In this document: positions 4,329 to 42,735 of the stretch, in pieces
Position numbering within the stretch: position 1 is the first letter of the stretch
How the letters are laid out: every line of letters begins with the position of its first letter
From: Defluviitaleaceae bacterium
GTDB taxonomy: Bacteria > Bacillota > Clostridia > Lachnospirales > WRAX01
Direction of reading: 5' to 3'
DNA length: 42,735 nt
Assembly (NCBI GenBank): GCA_009785555.1
Contig: WQWB01000008.1
Span: forward strand, 1 to 42,735
Notes under the pieces: model-generated
The model's input: only the letters and a program-made list of their open reading frames with translations
Database searches by the model: none
What the model was told of the DNA's origin: nothing
Position numbers and translations under genes: made by a program

Positions 4329-5222
4329 TCAACTTAACATAACTTGCCCGCCGGTAACGGGTATGGCCTGGCCCGTCTCATATTCCTGCTCTACGACGTA
4401 AAGGATTGCTTTGGCAACGTCTTTAACAGTGCAGCCGCGCTTCATGGGTACTTGGTTTTCGTAATGGCGGCGGACGTCGGATATGGTTTGCGCGCCGGGT
4501 ACCTTGCCTTGATCCAAATATTGGCGGAAAAGGCCGCGGATTGGATCCGTCCACAACGGCCCGTCCAATAGGTTTCCTGGGCAGATTGCGTTTACTTTGA
4601 TATTATATCCAACCAACTCCTTCGCAAAGGACTGCGTAAGGCCGATGCCGCCGAACTTTGACCCGGCGTAAGCGAAGTTGCGGTTGCTGCCCTCAAGGCC
4701 TGATTTGGAGTTTATCTCGATTATATCCATTATATGGTTCGGTGCGTATTCGTGCTGGATCTTCATAACTTCGGCAGCGTATTTGGCGCAGAGGAAATAA
4801 CCCGTGTAGTTTACTGATGTGACGAATTCGAAAGCCTCTTTCGTCATATCCTCCAAGCTACCTGCCACAAGCACGCCGGCGTTTGCTACCAATATATCCA
4901 GGCCGCCGAAATGCTCGACGGTTTTGTATACCATGTTCTTGACGGACTCTTCGTTGGTTACGTCCGCTTGGATGCCGATGCACCTGCGCGACAAGCGGTC
5001 GCGCGCTACGATTTCATCTGCAGCCGCAACTGCGCCTGCTTCGTTAAGGTCGGATATTATGGTGTACGCACCCTCGGCAGCAAGCTCTTCCGCGATACCG
5101 CGGCCAAAACCCTGTGCGCCGCCGGTGACGATGGCGATTTTGCCGCCGAGACGGCCGAGGGTGGGCGACTGCGGGTCACCCCTACGAAGCCGTGCTTCTA
5201 TTTTATCTCTTAAGTCTAGCAA
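4329..5222 (-). CDS. SDR family NAD(P)-dependent oxidoreductase, sorbitol-6-phosphate dehydrogenase-like
   Basis: TGGAQGFGRGIA nucleotide-binding motif, NAGV, YAGSKFGG (YxxxK), C-terminal PVTGGQVML. Overlaps the E1 gene by 7 nt. Confidence 0.85.
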   Translation of the reverse strand: MLDLRDKIEARLRRGDPQSPTLGRLGGKIAIVTGGAQGFGRGIAEELAAEGAYTIISDLNEAGAVAAADEIVARDRLSRRCIGIQADVTNEESVKNMVYKTVEHFGGLDILVANAGVLVAGSLEDMTKEAFEFVTSVNYTGYFLCAKYAAEVMKIQHEYAPNHIMDIIEINSKSGLEGSNRNFAYAGSKFGGIGLTQSFAKELVGYNIKVNAICPGNLLDGPLWTDPIRGLFRQYLDQGKVPGAQTISDVRRHYENQVPMKRGCTVKDVAKAILYVVEQEYETGQAIPVTGGQVMLS

Positions 5223-7690
5223 CCTGTTCGCCCCTTTCTGATTTGCTCAACGAACGTGAAGTTTTCCGTAACAATGTGGCCGGGCAGGGGCAGTATATTT
5301 TCGTGTATCGCATCTAAAATCCATGATGCCTGCGGGAAGAAAAACTCGTCAAATTCGAATGGAGGCGTTATCCAGTTTTTAGCGCCCACCACAACGGGTG
5401 GCGCGTCTAAATAATCGAAGCATAGTTCCGTTATATTTCGTGCTATTTCGTTAAGGAAGCTACCGCGTGCGCATGCATCGGACGCAAGCACGACGCGACC
5501 AGTTTTTTTAACGGATTCTATTATCTTTGTATAGTCGAGCGGCGTGAGGGAACAAAGGTTTATGATATCCGCGCTCATGCCATATTTTTCCTGTAAAATA
5601 TCCGCGGCTTCAACGGCTTTGTAAAGCGTCGCGCCTATCGTCAATATGGTAAATTCCGAGCCAACCCTTACTTGGTTGACATCGCCGATCTTAATTTCGT
5701 AGGCGTCGGTTGGTACGCCTTCTTTGTGGAACATTTCGCCCATGTCGTATATACGCTGTGATTCAAAGAAGACGACCGGGTCTGTGCCGTTTAAGGCGGC
5801 CTGCATAAGACCCTTAGCCTCGTAAGGAGTGGCTGGGAAGACGACTTTTAGACCGGGGATGTGTGCGCAAAGCGCTGTCCAATCCTGGCTGTGCTGTGCG
5901 CCATACTTTGCGCCTACAGACACTCGGAGGATTACGGGCATTTTAAGTATACCCGCGCTCATCGCCTGCCATTTGCTGAGTTGGTTAAACACCTCGTCTC
6001 CGGCGCGGCCGATAAAGTCGCAGTACATAAGTTCAACAACGACGCGTCCGCCGCATAAACCGTAGCCAACGGCCGAGCCGACGATCGCCGCCTCGGATAT
6101 GGGCGAGTTAAACAAGCGTGAGTGGGGTAGGGTATCTGCCAACCCCCTGTAAACCGCAAACGCGCCGCCCCAGTCGCGCACGTCTTCACCGTACGTGATA
6201 AGCGTTGAATCCTCATAAAACTTATCCATCATCGGCTCAAAGATAGCGTCGCGGATGTTGAACTGCTTGAGTTTTGATACTGCCTTGCCATCCTTCATGT
6301 AAAAACGTTCTTTTCCGGCGTTTTGCACTACGCGTGGGTTTTCTTCCTTGGGTATTAGCACGGCGGGTTCTTCTGTACCGAATGATTTAATATTGCCGTT
6401 GGAAAACATTATATTTTCAACGAACATTGAGTTTTTCTTAAAGTCGGGATAGGGGGATATATTTACATCTGACGCCCATTCGCAGATATTTGCCATGCGC
6501 TCGCGGGTTTCGTTCCATATCCTATCAAACTCCCCATCTTTTGCCACGCCGGCGTCGACAAGATCTTTGCGGAATGTGATGGTCGGGTCAACTTCCGCCC
6601 AAGCATCCATTTCCTCCTTGCTTCTATACGCGTTTTGGTCGCTTGTTGAATGGCCGGATAGGCGGTACGTAACGACGTCAAGCAACACTGGACCTTGTTT
6701 TTTTGCTAACACATCAAGCTTGCGGCGGTATGCGTCTATAACTGCTAGTGGGTTGTGGCCCCATACACGTTCGGCGTGCATTTGGGATGCGGATACACCG
6801 GCACCGAGGCGTGCAACCATGTCGTAGGCCATCGTTTCACCGCTGGTCTGTCCACCCATACCGTAGCCGTTGTTGAAGATATTAAAGATCAGCGGCAAAC
6901 CGCCAGGCTTATCCGTCCAAAGGTTTTCAAACTGGCCCATTGCGGCAAAGTTCATCGCTTCCCATACAGGACCGCAACCTAAAGACCCGTCGCCGATATT
7001 GCATATAACGACGCCTGGTTTATTGTTGCATTTTTTAAAAAGTGCACCGCCTGCGGCAACGGGTGCGGAGCCGCCAACGATGGCGTTGTTTGGATAAACG
7101 CCGAAAGGCAGGAAAAATGCATGCATAGAGCCACCCATACCCATATGGAAACCATTTTCACGTGCGAAGATTTCTGTAAGCGTACCATACAGGGTAAAAT
7201 AGATCGCCAACTCTTTCGTGCCTTTCGCGTGTTTAGTGATTCCTTGCTTTTCAAGCGCTTTTAGAATCCGGCCGCCAAGGTATCCTTCCATTATATTCAT
7301 CAGCGCACTGTCGTCAAGCTTTTCTATACATGACAATGATTTCGCCAAAATCTCCGAATGGGATCTATGGTTGCCGAAGATAAAATCGTCCGCCCCAAGC
7401 AAATATGCCTGGCCGACGGCGGCAGCCTCTTGCCCAAGGCTAAGGTGTGCAGGCCCCGGGTATGTCGTTTCGACATGGGCGTATTTACCTTGTGTTTTAA
7501 TTAGGTTAAGCATATGTTCGAATTCGCGCAGTATCGTAATGTCGCGGTAGATGCGGACTAGGTTATCGTCGCCGAAATCAGCGCGTACGTCGGCGACGGA
7601 TTTGCTATATGTGTTTATTGGAATGTCGGTAAATTTTATCGACCCGCTTTTGTTTATATCCTGCGGGAAAATGTTCATTGTCTTTGGCAT
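5216..7690 (-). CDS. Fused alpha/beta E1 component of a 2-oxo-acid (pyruvate/acetoin-type) dehydrogenase, TPP-dependent
   Basis: N-terminal half has the TPP motif GDGSLGCGPVWEAMNFAAM...NNGYGMGGQ; C-terminal half is E1-beta-like (YGEDVRDWGGAFAVYRGL, RVSVGAKYGAQHSQDWTALCAHIPGLKVVFPATPYEAKGL). SD AAGGAGG upstream. Confidence 0.92.
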   Translation of the reverse strand: MPKTMNIFPQDINKSGSIKFTDIPINTYSKSVADVRADFGDDNLVRIYRDITILREFEHMLNLIKTQGKYAHVETTYPGPAHLSLGQEAAAVGQAYLLGADDFIFGNHRSHSEILAKSLSCIEKLDDSALMNIMEGYLGGRILKALEKQGITKHAKGTKELAIYFTLYGTLTEIFARENGFHMGMGGSMHAFFLPFGVYPNNAIVGGSAPVAAGGALFKKCNNKPGVVICNIGDGSLGCGPVWEAMNFAAMGQFENLWTDKPGGLPLIFNIFNNGYGMGGQTSGETMAYDMVARLGAGVSASQMHAERVWGHNPLAVIDAYRRKLDVLAKKQGPVLLDVVTYRLSGHSTSDQNAYRSKEEMDAWAEVDPTITFRKDLVDAGVAKDGEFDRIWNETRERMANICEWASDVNISPYPDFKKNSMFVENIMFSNGNIKSFGTEEPAVLIPKEENPRVVQNAGKERFYMKDGKAVSKLKQFNIRDAIFEPMMDKFYEDSTLITYGEDVRDWGGAFAVYRGLADTLPHSRLFNSPISEAAIVGSAVGYGLCGGRVVVELMYCDFIGRAGDEVFNQLSKWQAMSAGILKMPVILRVSVGAKYGAQHSQDWTALCAHIPGLKVVFPATPYEAKGLMQAALNGTDPVVFFESQRIYDMGEMFHKEGVPTDAYEIKIGDVNQVRVGSEFTILTIGATLYKAVEAADILQEKYGMSADIINLCSLTPLDYTKIIESVKKTGRVVLASDACARGSFLNEIARNITELCFDYLDAPPVVVGAKNWITPPFEFDEFFFPQASWILDAIHENILPLPGHIVTENFTFVEQIRKGRTGC

Positions 7691-7714
7691 TATAGTCCTC
7701 CTTATTTTTAACGA

Positions 7715-8275
7715 TCATTTAATGAAATTTCGTTTGGCTAGCCTGTGTATTTTTATGTTAAGGTCAACATCATTTTTATCCCAAAGCTGAAGCTCCCAAG
7801 GGAAATAGAAGTTCGATTTGTTTTTAAAGTAAATATGAAGCCCTCTGTAATCGTCTTTATCGCGGAAATACCAGTTTTTAAGGCCGTAGCTTTCTTGCCA
7901 ACCATCCAACAATCCTTGTACATGCATCATTTCGTCTGTTGATAGAATCATTCGCGCTCCGAATATATCGTTCATCCAGTTGTTTATAGGGTATTTATCC
8001 ATGTTGCGAGAATATCTGTCAATTTTATCCAAGATACTTTCGGATGTCTTAACGCGGTAGTAATAGGTAATATTATCCAAATCCTGCGAAATAAGATAAT
8101 CATTTATGCTTTCATGTAGATTTAATCTGTACTTAAGGATATGCTCCGTCGGTACACTTGTTTTCGAAAGGTTGACTTTCTCTACTTTTCCAGTTTCAAA
8201 ATAATCCTGCGAGTATTGTAAGTGTACATCGTTTATTATATTTATAAGCCTTTCGACTTTGGCGATATTATTCAT
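7715..8275 (-). CDS. RelA/SpoT-domain protein with synthetase fold and no HD domain (small alarmone synthetase-like)
   Basis: RVKTSESILDKI (RxK...S...K), NDIFGARMI (DxxGxR), DYRGLHIYF, WELQLWD. ATG at 8275 preceded by SD GAGGTG; the track start at 8287 is an in-frame GTG. Confidence 0.8.
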   Translation of the reverse strand: MNNIAKVERLINIINDVHLQYSQDYFETGKVEKVNLSKTSVPTEHILKYRLNLHESINDYLISQDLDNITYYYRVKTSESILDKIDRYSRNMDKYPINNWMNDIFGARMILSTDEMMHVQGLLDGWQESYGLKNWYFRDKDDYRGLHIYFKNKSNFYFPWELQLWDKNDVDLNIKIHRLAKRNFIK

Positions 8276-8286
8276 CACACACCTCA

Positions 8287-9843
8287 CTAATCAAACAAAA
8301 CAACCCAATTCGCATCATCGTTCGCGCGGAAGCACATCTCAATTTGCTCCGCGCTGTTCTTTTCAGTCGCAAGTTCCGGTAGGTCGGATAGAGAGAACCA
8401 TGCCGCGTCTGTAGTTTCGTTATTTTTAATAAACCCACTTTCCGAAATCAGTTCACATAGAACAAATGCAGTTATAGCCCCGTATGGGAGCGATGGGTTA
8501 TTTTGCCTTTTTTTATCCAAAAGCGCAATAAGCCGAAGCGGTCTGGCGTCGAACCCGGTTTCTTCTTTAACTTCTTTTATGGAGTTGACGCCAACAGTTT
8601 CTAATACATCTACCCAACCGCCAGGCATGGCCCACCGCTCGCGTTCCTTAACCAGAAGGATTTTACCGCCCTTAAAAATAGCGGCGCGTGTGTCCAGCTT
8701 CGGCGTTTGGTAGCCAACTTCGTTACAGAACAGGTTCTGTACAACGGCAGTGTCTAGCCCGCTCTTTGCCGCCATTATCTCCGCCGCAATCTCGCGCATG
8801 CGTGCGTAGCGTTCCATATCAAAAACGTCTTTAGTGTAAGTAAGGCCGATTTGCGCGATGGCCTGCATCTCGATAGCCCACGACAGCCAAGGCTCGTTGT
8901 TGTTTGCCGTACGCGCCGGATCCTTAATGCTTAGCAATAACTTTAACCCTGTAATTGCAACTTCAATATGCTCAATATCAGGATTTTTCGTTACAAATAG
9001 GTTTTGAAGAAACAGACCGGGCGCGCAAAGCGTATGGATAAAGGCTTTTGCAATGCTTTTCTTTGATCTTAAGGAAATATAGTATATCATAAACGTAATT
9101 ATGAAAGATATGGGTATAATAATTATTCTAATCAGTGAGCGGAGGAAATAGTTGCCAATGTCCGGAAAAACCAACGTAAAAGCCAATACGCTGATTGCGG
9201 TTATAATTAACAGCAGTAGCATGATAAAACTTGTGCCGCACCTAACATCCGTCCGCCGTTGTTTTCTGACATTTTCTATAGTTAGAGGAACACCGGCGTC
9301 CAAGCATTTTATGGCCATATGTTCTGCGCCGTGGTATTTTGCTGGCTGCAACTTTTTGTTTCCTAAAATAAAGATAAAAAACGCCGTAAATACCAATGCA
9401 ACCGGGATGCTTATGGATTCTAATATCCCCATAACAGAGTTATTTAACAGGTTAAAGGGTAAGAGGATAAGCAGAGGTAAAAATACATACGCGGCAAGTG
9501 CAAACAGCGTTCCAAATACACCCGCAAAAAGCTTGTCGGACGTGCCTTCGTTCTCAACGTCGATTTCACCGTTAAACCTGCCGCCATTTTCCTTTAAGTG
9601 TTCATCCACCGCCATTTTATAAGCGAAGTTAAGGCCGGCAAACATTTTATTAATGATGTTAGTTGGCCGTTTGTCCGTTTTAATTATTTTGGTAGTTGTT
9701 GACATCCCGCCGTCCGGCGTACGCACGGCGACGGAATAGTGGAGCGCACTGCCAACGCGCCTATTAAAGATAATACCAGTACTTAGCGCGATGCCTCCGC
9801 ATTTCGCGCCGCTTATTGGCTTCTTTACCTTGTCTTTTGACAT
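8287..9843 (-). CDS. DUF1385 (YqhQ-like) membrane domain fused to a NUDIX hydrolase (with NUDIX N-terminal domain)
   Basis: KYHGAEHMAIKCLDAGVPLTIENVRKQRRTDVRCGTSF (DUF1385 core), then APGLFLQNLFVTKNPDIEHIEVAITGLK, then a NUDIX box GGWVDVLETVGVNSIKEVKEETGF. One continuous reading frame. Confidence 0.85.
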   Translation of the reverse strand: MSKDKVKKPISGAKCGGIALSTGIIFNRRVGSALHYSVAVRTPDGGMSTTTKIIKTDKRPTNIINKMFAGLNFAYKMAVDEHLKENGGRFNGEIDVENEGTSDKLFAGVFGTLFALAAYVFLPLLILLPFNLLNNSVMGILESISIPVALVFTAFFIFILGNKKLQPAKYHGAEHMAIKCLDAGVPLTIENVRKQRRTDVRCGTSFIMLLLLIITAISVLAFTLVFPDIGNYFLRSLIRIIIIPISFIITFMIYYISLRSKKSIAKAFIHTLCAPGLFLQNLFVTKNPDIEHIEVAITGLKLLLSIKDPARTANNNEPWLSWAIEMQAIAQIGLTYTKDVFDMERYARMREIAAEIMAAKSGLDTAVVQNLFCNEVGYQTPKLDTRAAIFKGGKILLVKERERWAMPGGWVDVLETVGVNSIKEVKEETGFDARPLRLIALLDKKRQNNPSLPYGAITAFVLCELISESGFIKNNETTDAAWFSLSDLPELATEKNSAEQIEMCFRANDDANWVVLFD

Positions 9844-11166
9844 TTAGGAAAACAAAACCTCTCTGATTATCTCGCAAACCGTGGGGTGAGGGAAAACGAC
9901 TTGTTTGTAATAGTCCACGTTCCTGCGTGATTCTATCATCATTACGCATATCTGCACAATCTCCGACGCGTAATTGCCGATTATGTGTGCGCCGATAAGC
10001 CGATTGGTCGATTTTTCCATAATCAGCTTGCATAGGCCGTCGGCTCGGTCGGTTTCCGCGACGAATCGGCCGCTGTAGCGCATGGATAACTTTTTGACGG
10101 TTGTGTCGATACCTTTTGCTGCAGCAGACTCCTCCGTCTCGCCAACCCCAGCAACTTCCGGGCTTGTGTAGATAACGGCGGGGATAGCGTCGTACCGCAT
10201 TTCATCCTTAACGCCAAGGATGTGGTTGATGGCAACCTCCGCCTCACGGTACGCTGTATGGGCAAGCATTGATTTGCCGTTGACGTCACCAGCGGCATAT
10301 ATGCCGGGTACGTTTGTGCGTGAGTTGGTGTCCGTAACAACAGCTCCGCGCTCCATGTGTACGTTAAGGCTTTCCAGGCCAAAGCCGGCAGAGACAGGTT
10401 TGCGGCCTATAGCTAAAAGAATCTTATCCGCGTTTATTTCGTCTATGTGTTCTATTTTTGTGTTTAACATGAATTTAATACCTTTTGCCGCAAGCTCCTT
10501 TTGTAACATATCGGCAATTTCGGTATCTAGATAGCCGCCGATGTGGCTTTGCATTTCAATAACCGTAACGCTTACGCCGATCGCGGCGAAGTACGCGGCC
10601 ATTTCAAGCCCAATAACGCCGCCGCCGATGACGGCAAGGGTTTTCGGCGGTTCCGCCAAATCCAAAATCTCGCGGCTGGTAAGTATGAGCCCACTTTCAA
10701 GCCCCTCTTTAAGGCCGGGGATTGGTAAGATAAGCACTTCTGAACCCGTCGCGACAAGGATGTTTCTGCCGGAGTACGTAGCCCCGTCCGCACTTACGGA
10801 AAAGTCACCGGCTGTCCCGCCGATAATTTCCGCCGTATGAGCGACAACCGTGACTCCAGCGCCTTTCATCTTCGCAGAAACTCCGGCGACAAGAGTACGT
10901 ACGATCTTTGTCTTGCGCTTTATTACGGCTTGATGGTTAAACTTAACGCCATCGGACGAAACACCGAATGCCTCGCCGTTTTGGGCCTGGGTATATAGCT
11001 TTGAAGAGTGCAGCAGCGTTTTTGTTGGTATGCAGCCTTCATTAAGGCATACGCCGCCGAGGGCTTTCTTTTCAAACAACAGGACGGACAGGCCGCCTTC
11101 CGCCGCGCGTTCCGCCGCCAAATAACCAGCTGGACCGCCGCCGATAATTATGAGGTCATATGTCAT
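9844..11166 (-). CDS. lpdA: Dihydrolipoyl dehydrogenase (E3)
   Basis: GGGPAGYLAAERAAEGG, redox motif GGVCLNEGCIPTKTLL, AIGRKP, C-terminal HPTVCEIIRE. Confidence 0.93.
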   Translation of the reverse strand: MTYDLIIIGGGPAGYLAAERAAEGGLSVLLFEKKALGGVCLNEGCIPTKTLLHSSKLYTQAQNGEAFGVSSDGVKFNHQAVIKRKTKIVRTLVAGVSAKMKGAGVTVVAHTAEIIGGTAGDFSVSADGATYSGRNILVATGSEVLILPIPGLKEGLESGLILTSREILDLAEPPKTLAVIGGGVIGLEMAAYFAAIGVSVTVIEMQSHIGGYLDTEIADMLQKELAAKGIKFMLNTKIEHIDEINADKILLAIGRKPVSAGFGLESLNVHMERGAVVTDTNSRTNVPGIYAAGDVNGKSMLAHTAYREAEVAINHILGVKDEMRYDAIPAVIYTSPEVAGVGETEESAAAKGIDTTVKKLSMRYSGRFVAETDRADGLCKLIMEKSTNRLIGAHIIGNYASEIVQICVMMIESRRNVDYYKQVVFPHPTVCEIIREVLFS

Positions 11167-11210
11167 ATAAATTATCTCCTAGTTTTGCCTTGTTCGTATT
11201 TTCGTGGTTA

Positions 11211-12497
11211 TTATAACGCCAACAACAAGCCAAACATCTCCAAATTACGGCATAAGTCTGCCGCGAAGCGTGATGCCGGCGCACCATCTACGGCGCGGTG
11301 GTCGTAAGTTATGGATAACCCCATAGACTTGTACAGCTCAAAACTACCGCATCCGCAACTATCCACGCTTTTGGCTGGGCGTATTTTGTCCGTAAGGCCA
11401 CAAACGCCTAAAATAGCGGTTTGCGGCGGGTTTACGATCGGCGTAAACATTTCCACGCCCGTATTACCTAAATTAGAAACCGTAAAGGTTGCGCCTTGCA
11501 GTAAATCCGGGTTGATCGTACCGTTTTTGGCCATTTCACCAAGCAGCTTTACTTCAGACGATATTTGCGATAAAGATTTCGTATCGGCGTTAAAGATTGT
11601 CGGCACGATGAGGCCGCGCGGCGTGTCCATCGCGATGCCGAGGTTGACGGCGGCGAACTTGCGGATAAATAAGTTATCGCCCTCGCCAAGTACGTGCGCG
11701 TTAAGTTCCGTATGGTTCTTAAGCGTTCTGGATACGGCAAAGAGTACTATATCGTTAAGCGTAACACTGGCAAGGCCTGAAACTGTGCCGTTTTCTTTAA
11801 GCAGCTTGCGGTAGGATAAAATCTCCGTAGCGTCAAAGCTATGGTGGTGCGTAAGCTGGGCAAGCTCGGCAAGAGACTTCGTCATCCCCTGCGATATGCG
11901 CTTTCGGATGAGGGTGAACTTTTCGTCGGTATACTTAACCGCCGGAGCGTGGGTAACGTTTTGTTCGGTTGCCGGTATATTTTGAATAACGTCTTGTGTT
12001 TTGGTTTCAGGTTTTTGGTCGCTGGTTTCGGCATTTCTGATATCTCTTTCGATAATACGCCCATTTGGACCGGTACCTTGGGTGGCTTGCGCATCAATAT
12101 CAAGCTTGTGCGCCAAGGTTTTCGCACGTGGTGAGATGCCGACTGACCCGAGCGGCGAAGGGGTAGCTGGTGGAATAGGGGTATCTGACATTATGGGGCT
12201 TTGTGCGGTTGTGTAGGCCTTAGATGCGGCATCACGTACTACGACCGTTGGGGTGCCGCCTTCTTCACCGATTTCGCACACATTTTCTAGGCACGGCACT
12301 TCATCCCCGCTTTCATAAAATATTTGAAGCAACGTTCCGGCTGCGGTAGACTCGCACTCAAATGCGGCCTTGTCCGTCTCATAATCGAAAAGGATATCAC
12401 CAATGGCAACGGCGTCGCCAACGTTTTTGCGCCATGTGCCTATTATACAGCTTTCTACGGATATACCAGCCTTGGGCATGATAACGAAATTAGACAT
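11211..12497 (-). CDS. Dihydrolipoamide acyltransferase (E2)
   Basis: Lipoyl domain with DYETDKAAFE, E3-binding domain ISPRAKTLAHKLDIDAQATQGTGPNGRIIERDI, catalytic TYDHRAVDGAPASRF. Start at 12497 (MSNFVIMPKAGISV) has SD GGAGGTTC; the 28-aa upstream extension in the track is unlikely. Confidence 0.92.
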   Translation of the reverse strand: MSNFVIMPKAGISVESCIIGTWRKNVGDAVAIGDILFDYETDKAAFECESTAAGTLLQIFYESGDEVPCLENVCEIGEEGGTPTVVVRDAASKAYTTAQSPIMSDTPIPPATPSPLGSVGISPRAKTLAHKLDIDAQATQGTGPNGRIIERDIRNAETSDQKPETKTQDVIQNIPATEQNVTHAPAVKYTDEKFTLIRKRISQGMTKSLAELAQLTHHHSFDATEILSYRKLLKENGTVSGLASVTLNDIVLFAVSRTLKNHTELNAHVLGEGDNLFIRKFAAVNLGIAMDTPRGLIVPTIFNADTKSLSQISSEVKLLGEMAKNGTINPDLLQGATFTVSNLGNTGVEMFTPIVNPPQTAILGVCGLTDKIRPAKSVDSCGCGSFELYKSMGLSITYDHRAVDGAPASRFAADLCRNLEMFGLLLAL

Positions 12498-12591
12498 ATA
12501 AAAGAACCTCCAAATAGATGCTCTTCTCATTATATAACATTTTCGCGGAAACCACAAGAAAAAAATGTAAAAGAATTTCAAAAAAGACTAT

Positions 12592-32633: not shown

Positions 32634-32679
32634 ACACCTCCATACATACATAGCCACAATTTAGGTTATGCGGAGGTGT
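32634..32679 (+). promoter_or_regulatory. Potential hairpin sequestering the sigK Shine-Dalgarno sequence
   Basis: ACACCTCC (32634-32641) is the exact reverse complement of GGAGGTGT (32672-32679, containing the SD); inner stem CATAGCC/GGTTATG with one G-U. Confidence 0.5.
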
Positions 32680-32681
32680 TT

Positions 32682-33335
32682 ATGTTTTGCCCGGTAATCG
32701 ACGGAAACTCATTCCCGCAAATTCTTGCGGTAGAGGAAGAAAAGAAATACCTTGATAAATATGAAAACGGAAATGAAGAAGAAAAACAAGAAGCAAAAAA
32801 TGTCCTAATCACAAGAAATTTGCGACTTGTGGCGCATGTTGTGAAAAAGTATACGATTAAAGGCGTGGAGCAGGATGACCTAATCTCCATCGGAACTATA
32901 GGTCTTATTAAGGGAATAACGACATATAAAATTTCCCGTGGGACAAAGCTTGCGACTTATGTATCTAGATGTATAGAAAATGAAATCCTAATGGAACTAC
33001 GGCGATTAAAGAGCCGTAGCCGTGAGATGTTTCTGAGCGACCCTGTTGGTGTAGATAAAGAAGGAAACAGCATTACGTTGGAAGATAGGTTAAAAGATGA
33101 GGGATATTCCATTGAAGAATCTGTGGGAATGAAGCTGGATGGCGCGCGTTTATCAAAAATAATGATGAGTGCGTTAACGGAGCGTGAACGCCGTATAATT
33201 ATAACGCGATACGGCCTTATAAACGGCGAAGAAAAAACACAGCGTGAAGTGGCCAAGATGCTAAGTATATCGAGGTCTTACGTGAGCAGGATAGAAAAAA
33301 GAGCACTGGAGAAATTGAGCGTAGAATTTAATTGA
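32682..33335 (+). CDS. sigK: Sporulation sigma factor SigK-type RNA polymerase sigma subunit
   Basis: NSFPQILAVEEEKKYL, NLRLVAHVVKKY, DDLISIGTIGLIKGITTYK, GTKLATYVSRCIENEILM, EKTQREVAKMLSISRSYVSRIEKRAL. ATG at 32682 follows GGAGG. Confidence 0.9.
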   Translation: MFCPVIDGNSFPQILAVEEEKKYLDKYENGNEEEKQEAKNVLITRNLRLVAHVVKKYTIKGVEQDDLISIGTIGLIKGITTYKISRGTKLATYVSRCIENEILMELRRLKSRSREMFLSDPVGVDKEGNSITLEDRLKDEGYSIEESVGMKLDGARLSKIMMSALTERERRIIITRYGLINGEEKTQREVAKMLSISRSYVSRIEKRALEKLSVEFN

Positions 33336-37219: not shown

Positions 37220-38851
37220 TTACCGCCTGCTTATCTCAGTTTTCGTAAACCTCTCCGGCGTAAACATTTGGGTAAAACCGGATGGAGGGTATTCTTCACC
37301 AAAACCCACATCCTCAACGGATCCGCGTACGATGCCGCCTTCCTCCTCCGCAAGGAGGGTAATGTTTAGGCGCGTCTTGCCGCTTGGCCGCTGGGGCAGA
37401 CCGTTTACTTCAACCTCGCCGATTAGTCTGCATTCGTCTATTTTATGTTCCTTGTCAATTCTTTCCAAGATTTTAAGGTAGAACTCAGTCATATCCTTCG
37501 GCTCGTTTCCGGAAAGTGTAAATATCTGGGATTTTTTAGCGAATTCGTACGGCGTGCCGCGGCGTATCATCGGGAAGAATGATTTTTGCGCGTCGCCGAT
37601 CTCTATACCGATATCGTGCGGTATCGTTACCATAAAATCTACGTTTAACTTATCCGTTTGCATATCGCGGCTTTGGCTCAGCCCCATTTTCATTGCCGCA
37701 TAATACGTTGCGCCGAAAGAGATGTCCAAATGCGGCCGCTCCGAACGGTATATCTTGCTTTCGTCATTAAAGATTTCAACGAGCATATTTTTCACCCATG
37801 GCATGAGGGACGATCCACCCTCCAAAAGCACTCTATTCACCTCGTCTGGCGCGATCGCGCCGTTATATGCCTCGCGTAGGGTCTTTATCGTCAGTCTGCG
37901 AGTTTTTGATATGAAATTGTTGATAAGCTCATCAAAATCGTCGCGCGTAAACTGCTCCACAAACGGCGGCACACAGAAGGTGAATGGGATGCGGAACGTT
38001 TTAACGCCGCTAAGCCGCTCCTTCGCTTCGCGCGCTCGTACGGCGATTTCGGCTTGGTTTTCCGGCGCGATATCCGTTACGGCTAACCCGGTTTTGGCTG
38101 TTATAGTCCTATAACAAAACTCCGCCAGCATATCATCTATGTTATCACCCCCGTGTGAGGCTTCTCCGCCTTCGGAAATAACCTGTAGCCGGAGACTGCT
38201 TTCTGTTTTTTCGGTAACGTGGAAGAGGGTGATGTCCAGCGTGCCGCCGCCAAAGTCGAATACGAGGATTCTTTCATCCAAATCAAGCTCACGGCGGAAA
38301 TTGTATGTTAATGCCGCGGCCTTTGGTTCCTCTATTAGGCATATCAGCTTGTCGGAAAGCTCGGCTAGTCTAACCGCGCGCATGGTGGCCTTCTTGGCCG
38401 CGTCGTCAAAATCGTACGGTACGGAAACAACAAGCCCGGCGATCTCTGCTTTGGGGTTTAAGCTGTATATATGGCGTACAAGTTCTTTAAGGATGAGTGC
38501 GGAGATTTCTTCGGGTAAAAAATTCTTGCCATCCAATAAAATCGGCTCGTTAGTACCCATTTTGCGCTTGATGCTGCGGATCGTGGCTTGCGGGTACAGC
38601 TTGATTGACCTATAAGCCTCTTCGCCGACAATCCATTCGCTCCCATCATCGCTGTTTCTGTACTGTACGACGGATGGAAGGGGTATTTTACCGAAGCCGT
38701 TTGAGATGTCGACGGGCACTGGTGTGCGGTTTGCGTTATCCCAATAAGATATAACCGAGTTCGTCGTTCCAAGGTCTATGCCTAAAATATACCAATCTTC
38801 AGGCAAGTTGCCTTTGGATTCGATTTCCTTGCGGTATGCTTCCCAGTTCAT
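37220..38851 (-). CDS. Hsp70 (DnaK)-family protein with intact nucleotide-binding motifs and no evident helical lid
   Basis: GIDLGTTNSVISYW, VFDFGGGTLDITLF, LLEGGSSLMPWV; C-terminal PSGKTRLNITLLAEEEGG beta-type substrate-binding segment, then it ends. Confidence 0.88.
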   Translation of the reverse strand: MNWEAYRKEIESKGNLPEDWYILGIDLGTTNSVISYWDNANRTPVPVDISNGFGKIPLPSVVQYRNSDDGSEWIVGEEAYRSIKLYPQATIRSIKRKMGTNEPILLDGKNFLPEEISALILKELVRHIYSLNPKAEIAGLVVSVPYDFDDAAKKATMRAVRLAELSDKLICLIEEPKAAALTYNFRRELDLDERILVFDFGGGTLDITLFHVTEKTESSLRLQVISEGGEASHGGDNIDDMLAEFCYRTITAKTGLAVTDIAPENQAEIAVRAREAKERLSGVKTFRIPFTFCVPPFVEQFTRDDFDELINNFISKTRRLTIKTLREAYNGAIAPDEVNRVLLEGGSSLMPWVKNMLVEIFNDESKIYRSERPHLDISFGATYYAAMKMGLSQSRDMQTDKLNVDFMVTIPHDIGIEIGDAQKSFFPMIRRGTPYEFAKKSQIFTLSGNEPKDMTEFYLKILERIDKEHKIDECRLIGEVEVNGLPQRPSGKTRLNITLLAEEEGGIVRGSVEDVGFGEEYPPSGFTQMFTPERFTKTEISRR

Positions 38852-38926
38852 ATTGTATGCCTTTCTAGAGTGACTTCGCATGCTGAGTTAGATTTAGAGT
38901 TGCGGATGAAGCCGCGGCTTCTAAAG

Positions 38927-40522
38927 TTATATCATTAAATGTATTTCCTGATTATAATCCGCCATTGGGAAAAGCTCGCCGAAGCCGCAGTCGGATAATT
39001 TAACGGTGCATTCATTCGGATTTTTGAAGTTTACGCTTAGGTTCAGCTTCGTTGTGCCTGGCGGGCGGGTTGGTAAATCACGCAGAGGTATTGTGGCGAG
39101 CTGGCGTATTTCGCCTTCGTCGTTACGGCTGTAGAGTGGTATATCACAATCTGCCGCGCCAGTGCCGCCGAGGTATATAAAATGGAAATTGCCGCGTTCC
39201 TGCCACCAAAAACTACCCATCTCAACGATTGGAAGAAACTTTTCGCGTTTAATGTTTTGGTGCTTATTCTGAACCAGAACTCCAATGTCAATGGTTAGGC
39301 GGTGGCTGTCCTCTATCATAAATTTTGGTATGTCTATAACGCCAAGTGCCGCCGCCGCACGTATGGATGCGCCACTTGCCGCTGCTGCTTTTGGGTTTTT
39401 ATCTATTATTACATTCGCGCGAGGATAAAGCTCCCTTATCGTGTCGCGCACCCAAAGCATCTCAAATCCGCCGCCGCTGCATAAAATGGTATCGATACTG
39501 ACGGCATTATCACCCGCAAGGTTAAAAAGCCGCTTGAGAAATACGGTGAACCGCTCTTTGTATGGGCGCAACGTTTCGTTCATAACTTTGTCTGTAACCG
39601 ATAAAACGACTGGTGGGTAGAGGAAGTTGTAGTATAATTTGACAGGGCGGCCGCCAGGCTGAAATTGGAAAAGTACATCCTTGTGTTGGTATGAAAAGCT
39701 TTTTATCTGTTCATATATCTGCGGATTTATTTTGTCTTTAGATATGGCGGCCTCACTGCAGTAGTGTTCGGTAATGAGTTTGTCCATAGCGGCGTCTATT
39801 GCGTCCGTACCGATGTTTTTATCGAAAAAGGATGAAAGGCATTTTATCATGCATACTCCTTCGTCCTCATCGGCGGGAATGATTTCGTAAATTCCGCCGC
39901 GCAGTTCGCGTGCACCGAAGTCCAGTAAGACGGTATTCTCTTTCTTGGGTTTGATTTTGAGAAAATAATTGGAAAACACACATTCTCTGTCAGAATCCAT
40001 GGATATCAACGGTTTATCGTATCCGGCGAGCTTAAAAACTTGTAAAAGAGCTTCTTTATTTTCTTCGGATGCATATCCGGGAAGAGACAGTACGATACCC
40101 GCAAACTCCGCATTAGGGTTGATGTTTCTGCAGTTTTGGAGCAGCTCACGTAGATAGTATGTCGTGGCTTGTTCAGCACCAATGGGTTTATCGCCAATAT
40201 CTAAGTATTCCTTCCGCAACGTGCGCTCTATAAGCCCGGTGATAATCGCGTCATCGGTCACGCCGCGGTTTAATAGGGCGTATTCGCCAAAGACAAAATC
40301 GCGCGACTCTTTAGCGTATTGCAAAGCCGTAGGCATACTGGGTTTACCGTAGCCGCCGCTCACGTCAATTATCTCGGCACCTCCGCGCCCGTGGTCGAAA
40401 TATGCCAAAGAAGAGCTATGGTTACCTAAATCCACGCCCAGTATAAATAAACTCTCCCTTGACCTTGCGTCAAGTAAATTTTCTTCAAAACGCTTGCGGT
40501 ATATTTTCCAACTGTGGGTCAT
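38927..40522 (-). CDS. Hsp70-like protein with degenerate nucleotide-binding motifs
   Basis: GVDLGNHSSSLAYF, LLDFGARELRGGIYEI and LCSGGGFEMLWV align to the Hsp70 motifs; same ~30-aa N-terminal extension style as the neighbouring Hsp70. Confidence 0.8.
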   Translation of the reverse strand: MTHSWKIYRKRFEENLLDARSRESLFILGVDLGNHSSSLAYFDHGRGGAEIIDVSGGYGKPSMPTALQYAKESRDFVFGEYALLNRGVTDDAIITGLIERTLRKEYLDIGDKPIGAEQATTYYLRELLQNCRNINPNAEFAGIVLSLPGYASEENKEALLQVFKLAGYDKPLISMDSDRECVFSNYFLKIKPKKENTVLLDFGARELRGGIYEIIPADEDEGVCMIKCLSSFFDKNIGTDAIDAAMDKLITEHYCSEAAISKDKINPQIYEQIKSFSYQHKDVLFQFQPGGRPVKLYYNFLYPPVVLSVTDKVMNETLRPYKERFTVFLKRLFNLAGDNAVSIDTILCSGGGFEMLWVRDTIRELYPRANVIIDKNPKAAAASGASIRAAAALGVIDIPKFMIEDSHRLTIDIGVLVQNKHQNIKREKFLPIVEMGSFWWQERGNFHFIYLGGTGAADCDIPLYSRNDEGEIRQLATIPLRDLPTRPPGTTKLNLSVNFKNPNECTVKLSDCGFGELFPMADYNQEIHLMI

Positions 40523-40547
40523 TTGTGGTTTCCTTCAGTGTTTTGCA

Positions 40548-41777
40548 TTATTTTGCAGCTATAACGTTTGCCCTTAAAATTACCCTGTCACCTTGTTTAA
40601 AACCGCTATTAAGCAACTTTATGATTTCACCCTTTTTGAAGTTTCCATCGGTCTCTGCCGTTAAAACCTCGTGATATTGGCCGTTAAACATTGTGCCGGG
40701 GGTAGGCTGTATCGGGGATATACCGAAATGGCCTAAGGCGGACGCAATGGTTGCCGTGGCATCGTCCAACAACGCAACGAATGCGCCGATAGCCTCATTG
40801 CTGTGCGAGGCTTCACGAATACGCGGCGCGGAATGGAGCATTATTTCTTCAAAAGTCGTAATTTCGTATAATGTGTGTTCCTTTTTAAATTTCGTCAACA
40901 GGCCATCGACCTGCTCGGCAATCTTATCGGCAGGTGAATATTTGCTTACGGCGTAGGGAGCGTATATTTCGTTTGCAACGGTAAAGTTTAAGTATTTTTT
41001 GACGGCGGACAGTGCGCGTCTGTCTCCTTTTTGATAAACGGCCATTTCCTGTACCATCGTATTAAATGCTGCCGCCGACACGGTATCAATCCAAGGCGGA
41101 AGAAGTGGGTTAGGCGGCTCGATTGGTTTGTTTATACAAGACGCGATACTCTCTTTTAAAGCGGTAAGCCCCTCGTCCAAAGATTCGGATTTAATTTGCA
41201 TGGTTTCCGCAATGCCTTTAATGATACGATTTTCGGTGCTGTCTACGGAGTATTGAAATTTGTATCGTTCATAAAAATCAGCTATTTTTTTAAAAATAGC
41301 GCGTATCCCGTCTGTCATGCTAATTTCGCTTGCTAATTTATTTCCTGCATTATTATTAGATAAATGCCGGCCGCTTTCAGCCGGGGCATGTTGGTGGTGT
41401 AAAATTTCTTTGTGTAATTCTGCAGTAAAAGCGATGCGGAGAGTCTCGAGCTTTCCGGCAAAATCTGCCGTTGTTTCTTCGATATCAAACTGCGGAATGT
41501 TATTTTCAGAAATATTTTTTAGTTTTGATAAAAAATTATTGTACTGCTCCGTTCCTGGCCTGGCATGAAAAAACAACCGCGTTTCGGTAAAGAAGTTTTC
41601 AGAAAGCTCGGATTTGGGTATATTAAAAATATTTTCCGACAAAATGGCGCAAAAAGTGTCTATTGGCGTGACGGCACGCTGCCAAAGCCGAAGGATCTTG
41701 CTTTCGCGGCTTTGGGTATAAGTTCTCTGTCTATTGCGAGGTTTTGGGTATCTGCTCATAATATCAGCTCTCTGCAT
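40548..41777 (-). CDS. Large protein with a C-terminal GrpE-like (beta-wing) domain
   Basis: C-terminal LGHFGISPIQPTPGTMFNGQYHEVLTAETDGNFKKGEIIKLLNSGFKQGDRVILRANVIAAK matches the GrpE pattern; N-terminal ~300 aa unassigned. ATG directly follows the upstream Hsp70 stop (TAAATG). Confidence 0.65.
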   Translation of the reverse strand: MQRADIMSRYPKPRNRQRTYTQSRESKILRLWQRAVTPIDTFCAILSENIFNIPKSELSENFFTETRLFFHARPGTEQYNNFLSKLKNISENNIPQFDIEETTADFAGKLETLRIAFTAELHKEILHHQHAPAESGRHLSNNNAGNKLASEISMTDGIRAIFKKIADFYERYKFQYSVDSTENRIIKGIAETMQIKSESLDEGLTALKESIASCINKPIEPPNPLLPPWIDTVSAAAFNTMVQEMAVYQKGDRRALSAVKKYLNFTVANEIYAPYAVSKYSPADKIAEQVDGLLTKFKKEHTLYEITTFEEIMLHSAPRIREASHSNEAIGAFVALLDDATATIASALGHFGISPIQPTPGTMFNGQYHEVLTAETDGNFKKGEIIKLLNSGFKQGDRVILRANVIAAK

Positions 41778-42735
41778 TTAATATAAATCGTCTACTGACA
41801 GTTCCGTCACAGCACCGCTTTCGGATGTGGATTGTGCGGTTACCTTTAGCATATTGTCCTGCGCCACATGGAAGATAACTCGCACCTTTTCCTGCCCTTT
41901 GGGACCCGCGGGGATGCCTCGCAATTGCGTGCCGGCGAGGCGCTTCATCCCGTCAGCTGAAACGTTAGTCGACGAAGCAGGCACATCGGGGCTTGGGTTT
42001 GTGTTCTCATAAACGACAATAGCCATGCTTGTTACATTATCAAAGTTGGTCGTAAGTAAGTCAGCGGCTTCGATGACAAGCCCCTCGCGCGGGATATCAA
42101 CGCCCTGGGGCACGATCTGCAGAAAGCGGCGCCCCGCGATCTCAAGACCAAGGGGGTGGATGGTTCGTTCTTGCATAACGGGGCCTTTTAGCGTCGGCAT
42201 CATTATCATATTACAGTAATGCGCTGCACCCTGCGAGATGGACAGTGCCGGCGAAATTCGCGATCTAAACGGTTCTTTGCCGAACTTTTCCAGTATTTTT
42301 TCACCAACCAAGGTAAGAGAGGAAGAGCCGCCGACGAGGAAGACCTCATCCACTTTATTTGGATCAAGCTCCGCAGCCTCCAAGCATTTGTCTATGCAGT
42401 CAAGTGTGATGTCAATTATATCCAAGAGGTTTTTACCGATAAATTTTTCGCATGCGGCTGGAGTGTCGCCAAGCTCGTTTACTCGTTTGTGGCTGATAAA
42501 ATCGTCCCGCGATATTTCCATGTTTATATTCACTATCCGAGGTTCTTGTATGAAAGGCGCAAGGGTGATTTTTGTTGTCTTGGATTGGGATAGGCGTTCT
42601 TTTGCCTGGTTGGCAACCTGCGCAAGGCGTACGAGGGCAACCTTTTTTTGCCGCGCGGACATGCCGTCGTCGGCTTGCCGGTTAAACAGGTCTATTTCGT
42701 TATCCGTTAGTTTGCGGAATTCTTCGTAGATCATA
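41778..42735 (-). CDS. Hsp70 (DnaK)-family protein, N-terminus runs off the right edge
   Basis: VDEVFLVGGSSSLTLVGEKI, LSISQGAAHY, HPLGLEIAGRRFLQIVPQG, LRGIPAGPKGQEKVRVIFHVAQDNMLKVTAQSTSESG. The Met at 42734 is probably internal. Confidence 0.88.
   Translation of the reverse strand, partial: MIYEEFRKLTDNEIDLFNRQADDGMSARQKKVALVRLAQVANQAKERLSQSKTTKITLAPFIQEPRIVNINMEISRDDFISHKRVNELGDTPAACEKFIGKNLLDIIDITLDCIDKCLEAAELDPNKVDEVFLVGGSSSLTLVGEKILEKFGKEPFRSRISPALSISQGAAHYCNMIMMPTLKGPVMQERTIHPLGLEIAGRRFLQIVPQGVDIPREGLVIEAADLLTTNFDNVTSMAIVVYENTNPSPDVPASSTNVSADGMKRLAGTQLRGIPAGPKGQEKVRVIFHVAQDNMLKVTAQSTSESGAVTELSVDDLY

Follow-up and report, generated by a model that had tools for sequence, protein, structure and literature searches.

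What kind of system is encoded at the end of a contig from a Defluviitaleaceae bacterium, where Hsp70-type genes and a GrpE-like gene follow one another on the same strand? The original prediction saw there a dedicated chaperone or signalling complex, separate from the housekeeping DnaK–GrpE–DnaJ system. The window (the whole stretch of DNA that was analyzed, 42,735 nucleotides) is the complete contig C8 of a fragmented 1.69 Mb draft genome that is 84%-complete. Re-reading the window recovered all four predicted minus-strand open reading frames at their coordinates, and the Pfam scores for three Hsp70-type genes and a fourth ending in a GrpE-like domain turned out to be far above chance. In the order of transcription (A → B → C → D) the genes are:

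41778..42735, minus strand: A, 3′ part of an Hsp70 gene, with NBD lobe II and SBD-beta and without a lid (Pfam HSP70, 83.6 bits)
40548..41777, minus strand: B, helical protein with a C-terminal GrpE-type nucleotide exchange domain (Pfam GrpE, 47.7 bits)
38927..40522, minus strand: C, degenerate (pseudo-) Hsp70 of the DUF5716_C family (Pfam DUF5716_C, 80.2 bits; HSP70, 37.9 bits)
37220..38881, minus strand: D, lidless Hsp70, ATPase-competent by sequence (Pfam HSP70, 181 bits)

Gene A is truncated at its 5′-end because the contig stops at 42735 inside it; about 240 N-terminal residues are missing, full-length orthologues being about 560 aa long. What remains is 81% identical to the orthologue in relative locus L066 and 30% identical to the DnaK of the same genome. 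Since the window copy is cut before the catalytic region, the catalytic motifs of A were taken from orthologues. For D, the probable start is at 38851 (MNWEAY, after AGAAAGG), and for B a start at 41759 is possible. A promoter and terminator scan found 19 promoter-like sites, against 9.6 in shuffled sequences, and 9 terminators, which is not above the 7.9 of the shuffles.

Elsewhere in the window, a minus-strand region (4329-12581) of this Clostridia genome encodes a pyruvate-type 2-oxo-acid dehydrogenase complex, consisting of a fused E1 alpha-beta (824 aa), E3 and E2, together with two proteins that have no NCBIfam match. A SigK/SigE-like sporulation sigma factor gene on the plus strand (32676-33335) suggests that the lineage is spore-forming.

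The GrpE-like domain predicted for the 40548-41777 product is present both by HMM and by fold. Residues 304-408 of B align with GrpE positions 58-164, the Pfam cut-off for this family being 25.8 bits, and a profile of B orthologues matches the solved GrpE structure 4ani. Moreover, in Foldseek searches with an AF2 model of B (pLDDT 82), the best 11 PDB fold matches were all GrpE or GrpEL1, at probability 1.00. B thus combines the GrpE profile with the GrpE fold, helices plus a beta-wing, and its predicted role is that of an exchange factor. B is 409 aa long here versus about 500-650 aa in orthologues, with the GrpE part intact. The window copy lacks some 100-240 residues of the N-terminal half that orthologues carry; this could be a true deletion or an assembly problem.

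The four genes are part of a larger operon. In full, the conserved operon has eight genes in the order DUF5717_N (G1), DUF5717 (G2), A, B, C, D, E (an Hsp70 with a vWA domain) and F (a TPR protein), and this order is kept in about 20 genomes of several families, mostly with short gaps. In 20 relative loci plus the window, the adjacent pair A-B occurs 15 times, B-C 19 times and C-D 17 times, with gaps mostly below 60 bases. One relative carries three paralogous open reading frames (cluster c8) between B and C (L080 8114-12904). In the genome of the window, G1 and G2 lie on contig C38, the end of which cuts G2. As C38 ends inside G2 and the window breaks off inside A, the two contigs very probably adjoin. 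E and F are here unlinked from A-D and lie on contig C2, F about 6 kb downstream of E, so that D is followed by an unrelated gene. The position of E is:

G000:C2:47563-49722 (= L012 7564-9723): E, Hsp70 whose C-terminal part is a fused vWA domain carrying metal-site motifs

Of the partners suspected beyond the original locus, TPR and DUF proteins were found, but neither a J-domain nor a kinase turned up among the operon proteins scanned. From this synteny we infer that A-F may act as a physical complex.

What could the upstream genes contribute? They exceed the cut-off of DUF5717_N (DUF5717 comprises PF18984/PF18983). In family f6, where DUF5717 is fused, a model with pLDDT 82 begins with beta-sandwich domains, matched by central-apparatus proteins and titin, and continues as a long TPR-type superhelix that resembles Naa15, Ctr9 and Ski3; TPR was matched by profile as well. 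The model indicates that DUF5717 is an Ig/ASH-like plus TPR scaffold. A membrane gene (X) with three predicted TM helices, a long coiled coil and no confident Pfam family lies upstream of DUF5717 in one relative (L085 4227-5666). Similar genes are adjacent in L066, L068 and L082 too, this adjacency being limited to a minority of genomes.

The Hsp70 paralogues fall into active and inactive members (residues are numbered as in E. coli DnaK). Every orthologue of A (15/15), D (21/21) and E (17/17) carries D8, T11, K70, E171, D194, T199 and D201, so by sequence these three are predicted to be ATPase-competent. C is the degenerate Hsp70 that had been anticipated: K70 and T199 are lost in all 21 orthologues and D201 is replaced by R in 20 of them. 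Nonetheless, a profile of C orthologues matches BiP/DnaK at 2e-22, and C itself exceeds the cut-off of DUF5716_C (PF18980), 80.2 versus 34.7 bits. This indicates that DUF5716, like DUF5717 an uncharacterised Pfam family, is an Hsp70 derivative; no relevant paper on either family was found in the open-licence literature. The absence of an alpha-helical lid, claimed from the visible C-termini, is borne out by what follows the point aligned with the end of DnaK SBD-beta: 11-12 residues in A, 15-25 in D and 14-24 in C (1 in one row). In E, the place of the lid is taken by about 210 residues of a vWA domain, and 17/17 sequences have its metal-site motifs DTTGS and TDAP.

We then considered how this set relates to the housekeeping chaperones. 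A perfect CIRCE operator marks a separate canonical locus, hrcA-grpE-dnaK-(four small genes)-dnaJ, on contig C5 of this genome; such a locus is expected if the Hsp70 set stands apart from DnaK–GrpE–DnaJ. No CIRCE with up to three mismatches was found in the window or on the DUF5717 contig C38. In DnaK, the HPD motif of the J-domain engages R167 and L391, R167 interacts with D393, and the response to J-domains depends on these residues (PMC7289447, PMC8215388). In A, D and E, the J-contact residues R167, N170 and T173 and the conserved linker (VLLLD, around L391/D393) are replaced, each paralogue in its own way. The only J-domain protein of the genome is the canonical housekeeping DnaJ, which might act on A, D or E.

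Features tied to the use of an exchange factor differ among the paralogues. In HscA and HscC, which do not need such a factor, the GrpE-signature loop is gone, as are the K55-E267/R56-E264 cleft bridges (PMC8215388). In D, the loop is shorter by 6 and E267 has become R, and A shows a partial HscA-like loss (loop shorter by one, E264/E267 lost). In E, 17/17 sequences retain K55 and E267, and the length of the loop is exactly preserved in all of them. As E is the only paralogue that retains both the GrpE-signature loop and the K55/E267 pair, this residue conservation makes it the likely partner of B.

The reading that we put forward, with about an even chance of being correct, is a dedicated Hsp70 machine apart from DnaK–DnaJ–GrpE: a J-independent, exchange-factor-gated assembly switch on a TPR/Ig scaffold. 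The anatomy is observed; for the mechanism, as for the complex, we infer the following scheme. ATP turnover would be triggered by fixed partners within the complex rather than by a J-domain. B would reset mainly E, and A and D would release nucleotide unaided, as HscA does. The lidless SBD-beta and vWA domains would grip particular segments, folded or extended, that belong either to the scaffold or to a single client, the trapping of unfolded proteins under a lid not being the mode, and C would serve as a catalytically dead structural member. Such a machine may assemble, remodel or keep ready a single dedicated assembly of proteins, perhaps close to the membrane, given the membrane coiled-coil gene upstream in some genomes.

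The same genes could instead be a general accessory folding or holding system, extra Hsp70s that share the housekeeping DnaJ and add stress capacity like duplicated DnaKs elsewhere. Hsp70 and GrpE domains are present, the genome does encode that DnaJ, and there are known cases of duplicated DnaKs whose roles differ (PMC11019930). However, a lid and CIRCE are missing, all three active paralogues have other residues at the J-contact and linker positions, and the four paralogues are ancient and usually occur together with TPR/DUF partners. We therefore consider it unlikely that general folding is the function.

How widespread is the dedicated machine? The original prediction allowed for similar Hsp70 clusters in other Clostridia. 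They are indeed present in several families, but the system is not general in Clostridia; it is confined to part of one order (Defluviitalea and relatives). C orthologues (E ≤ 2e-54) were found in at least 80 of the 295 sampled genomes of the order, a tally of 190 genomes for C including DnaK-level matches. DUF5717 occurs in 145/290 genomes of the order and in 5/398 across the phylum, all five from the same order, and the B profile matched, among the 398 phylum genomes, that of the window alone. The phylum search with the profile from alignment A2 was dominated by DnaK matches, since that alignment contained the genome's own DnaK; among the matches listed, none exceeded 477 bits except its own D (977) and its own DnaK (549). 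Carriers are gut and sediment bacteria. They include Defluviitalea phaphyphila Alg1, many Defluviitaleaceae MAGs from termite guts and MAGs that bear the name Candidatus Epulonipiscium. In families f24, f12, f17 and f22, complete genomes have DnaK plus A, D and E, the latter three in a single cluster.

In a maximum-likelihood tree, A, C, D and E each formed one clade (support for D was just below the threshold), and E grouped with DnaK. Because the tree included a single DnaK row and has long branches, its deep branching order is uncertain. As for evolutionary rates, A, D and E are slow, being the slowest members, and C is the fastest. In family f6 (probably Lachnospiraceae; L164, L165, L166, L167) the cluster is reduced to DUF5717, a shortened DUF5716 (unrecognised in one locus), an F-like TPR protein and a coiled-coil membrane protein with two predicted TM helices. 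The existence of this cluster without A, B, D and E would fit a scheme in which DUF5717, DUF5716 (C) and F are themselves the working device, the active Hsp70s and B being mere regulators gained or lost by lineage. The rates in full-operon families, where A, D and E are slowest and C is fastest, imply that the Hsp70s are not peripheral there, and we find this scheme improbable.

Next, we compared the presumed J-independent machine with known systems. With DnaK–DnaJ–GrpE the cluster shares the Hsp70 NBD fold, the intact catalytic residues of A, D and E, SBD-beta and a GrpE-type exchange domain. In contrast to that system, it has no lid, tail, operon J-protein or CIRCE, its J-contact and linker residues are replaced, and it comprises several paralogues, one of them dead. 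Like the Hsp70s of HscA–HscB and HscC–DjlB/C, those of the cluster are specialised and divergent from DnaK, and D resembles HscA in that its GrpE-signature loop is shortened and the cleft salt bridges are lacking. Yet HscA and HscC have dedicated J-proteins, keep the lid and use no exchange factor, whereas the cluster lacks both lid and J-protein but has an exchange factor of its own. The cluster inverts their arrangement; judged by the defining features that were tested, it belongs to none of the DnaK, HscA and HscC systems.

A similar set of parts is known from GAP1-N2 GTPase systems: one of their themes combines two HSP70s and GrpE with a beta-sandwich protein to which DnaJ or TPR repeats are fused (PMC7159879). 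The cluster has the same kinds of parts, vWA included, but it differs in its four Hsp70s, the fusion of vWA to Hsp70 and core-like conservation within families; neither a GAP1 domain nor a GTPase was found among the operon proteins scanned. A related conflict, defence or signalling system is decidedly improbable: membership is ruled out by the lack of GAP1-N2 (PF20013) in the genome itself, the two relatives with GAP1-N2 have the gene on other contigs or unlinked, effector domains are absent, PADLOC gave no more than weak HSP70/TPR-level similarity, and A, D and E evolve slowly. A mobile origin was likewise rejected, as plasmid searches with A and E returned nothing beyond DnaK-level matches of 31-39% identity.

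The cluster therefore looks like an apparently undescribed kind of ATP-driven protein machine. With somewhat less than an even chance, in our estimate, it would stand next to DnaK, HscA and HscC as a new type of Hsp70 system in prokaryotes, J-independent and gated by an exchange factor. Three active lidless Hsp70s, one with vWA, and a pseudo-Hsp70 would sit on an Ig/TPR scaffold, and Hsp70 would work stoichiometrically as a switch for assembly, not as a folding chaperone.

To our knowledge, J-proteins are regarded as obligatory partners of Hsp70. Specialised bacterial Hsp70s are known that dispense with the exchange factor and keep the J-protein. The cluster reverses this specialisation, has no lid in any of its Hsp70s and combines active paralogues with dead ones, and it offers a test of how Hsp70 ATPase can be controlled without a J-domain. 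Moreover, two uncharacterised families, DUF5716 and DUF5717, the latter present in half of the genomes sampled from the order, gain a structural identity.
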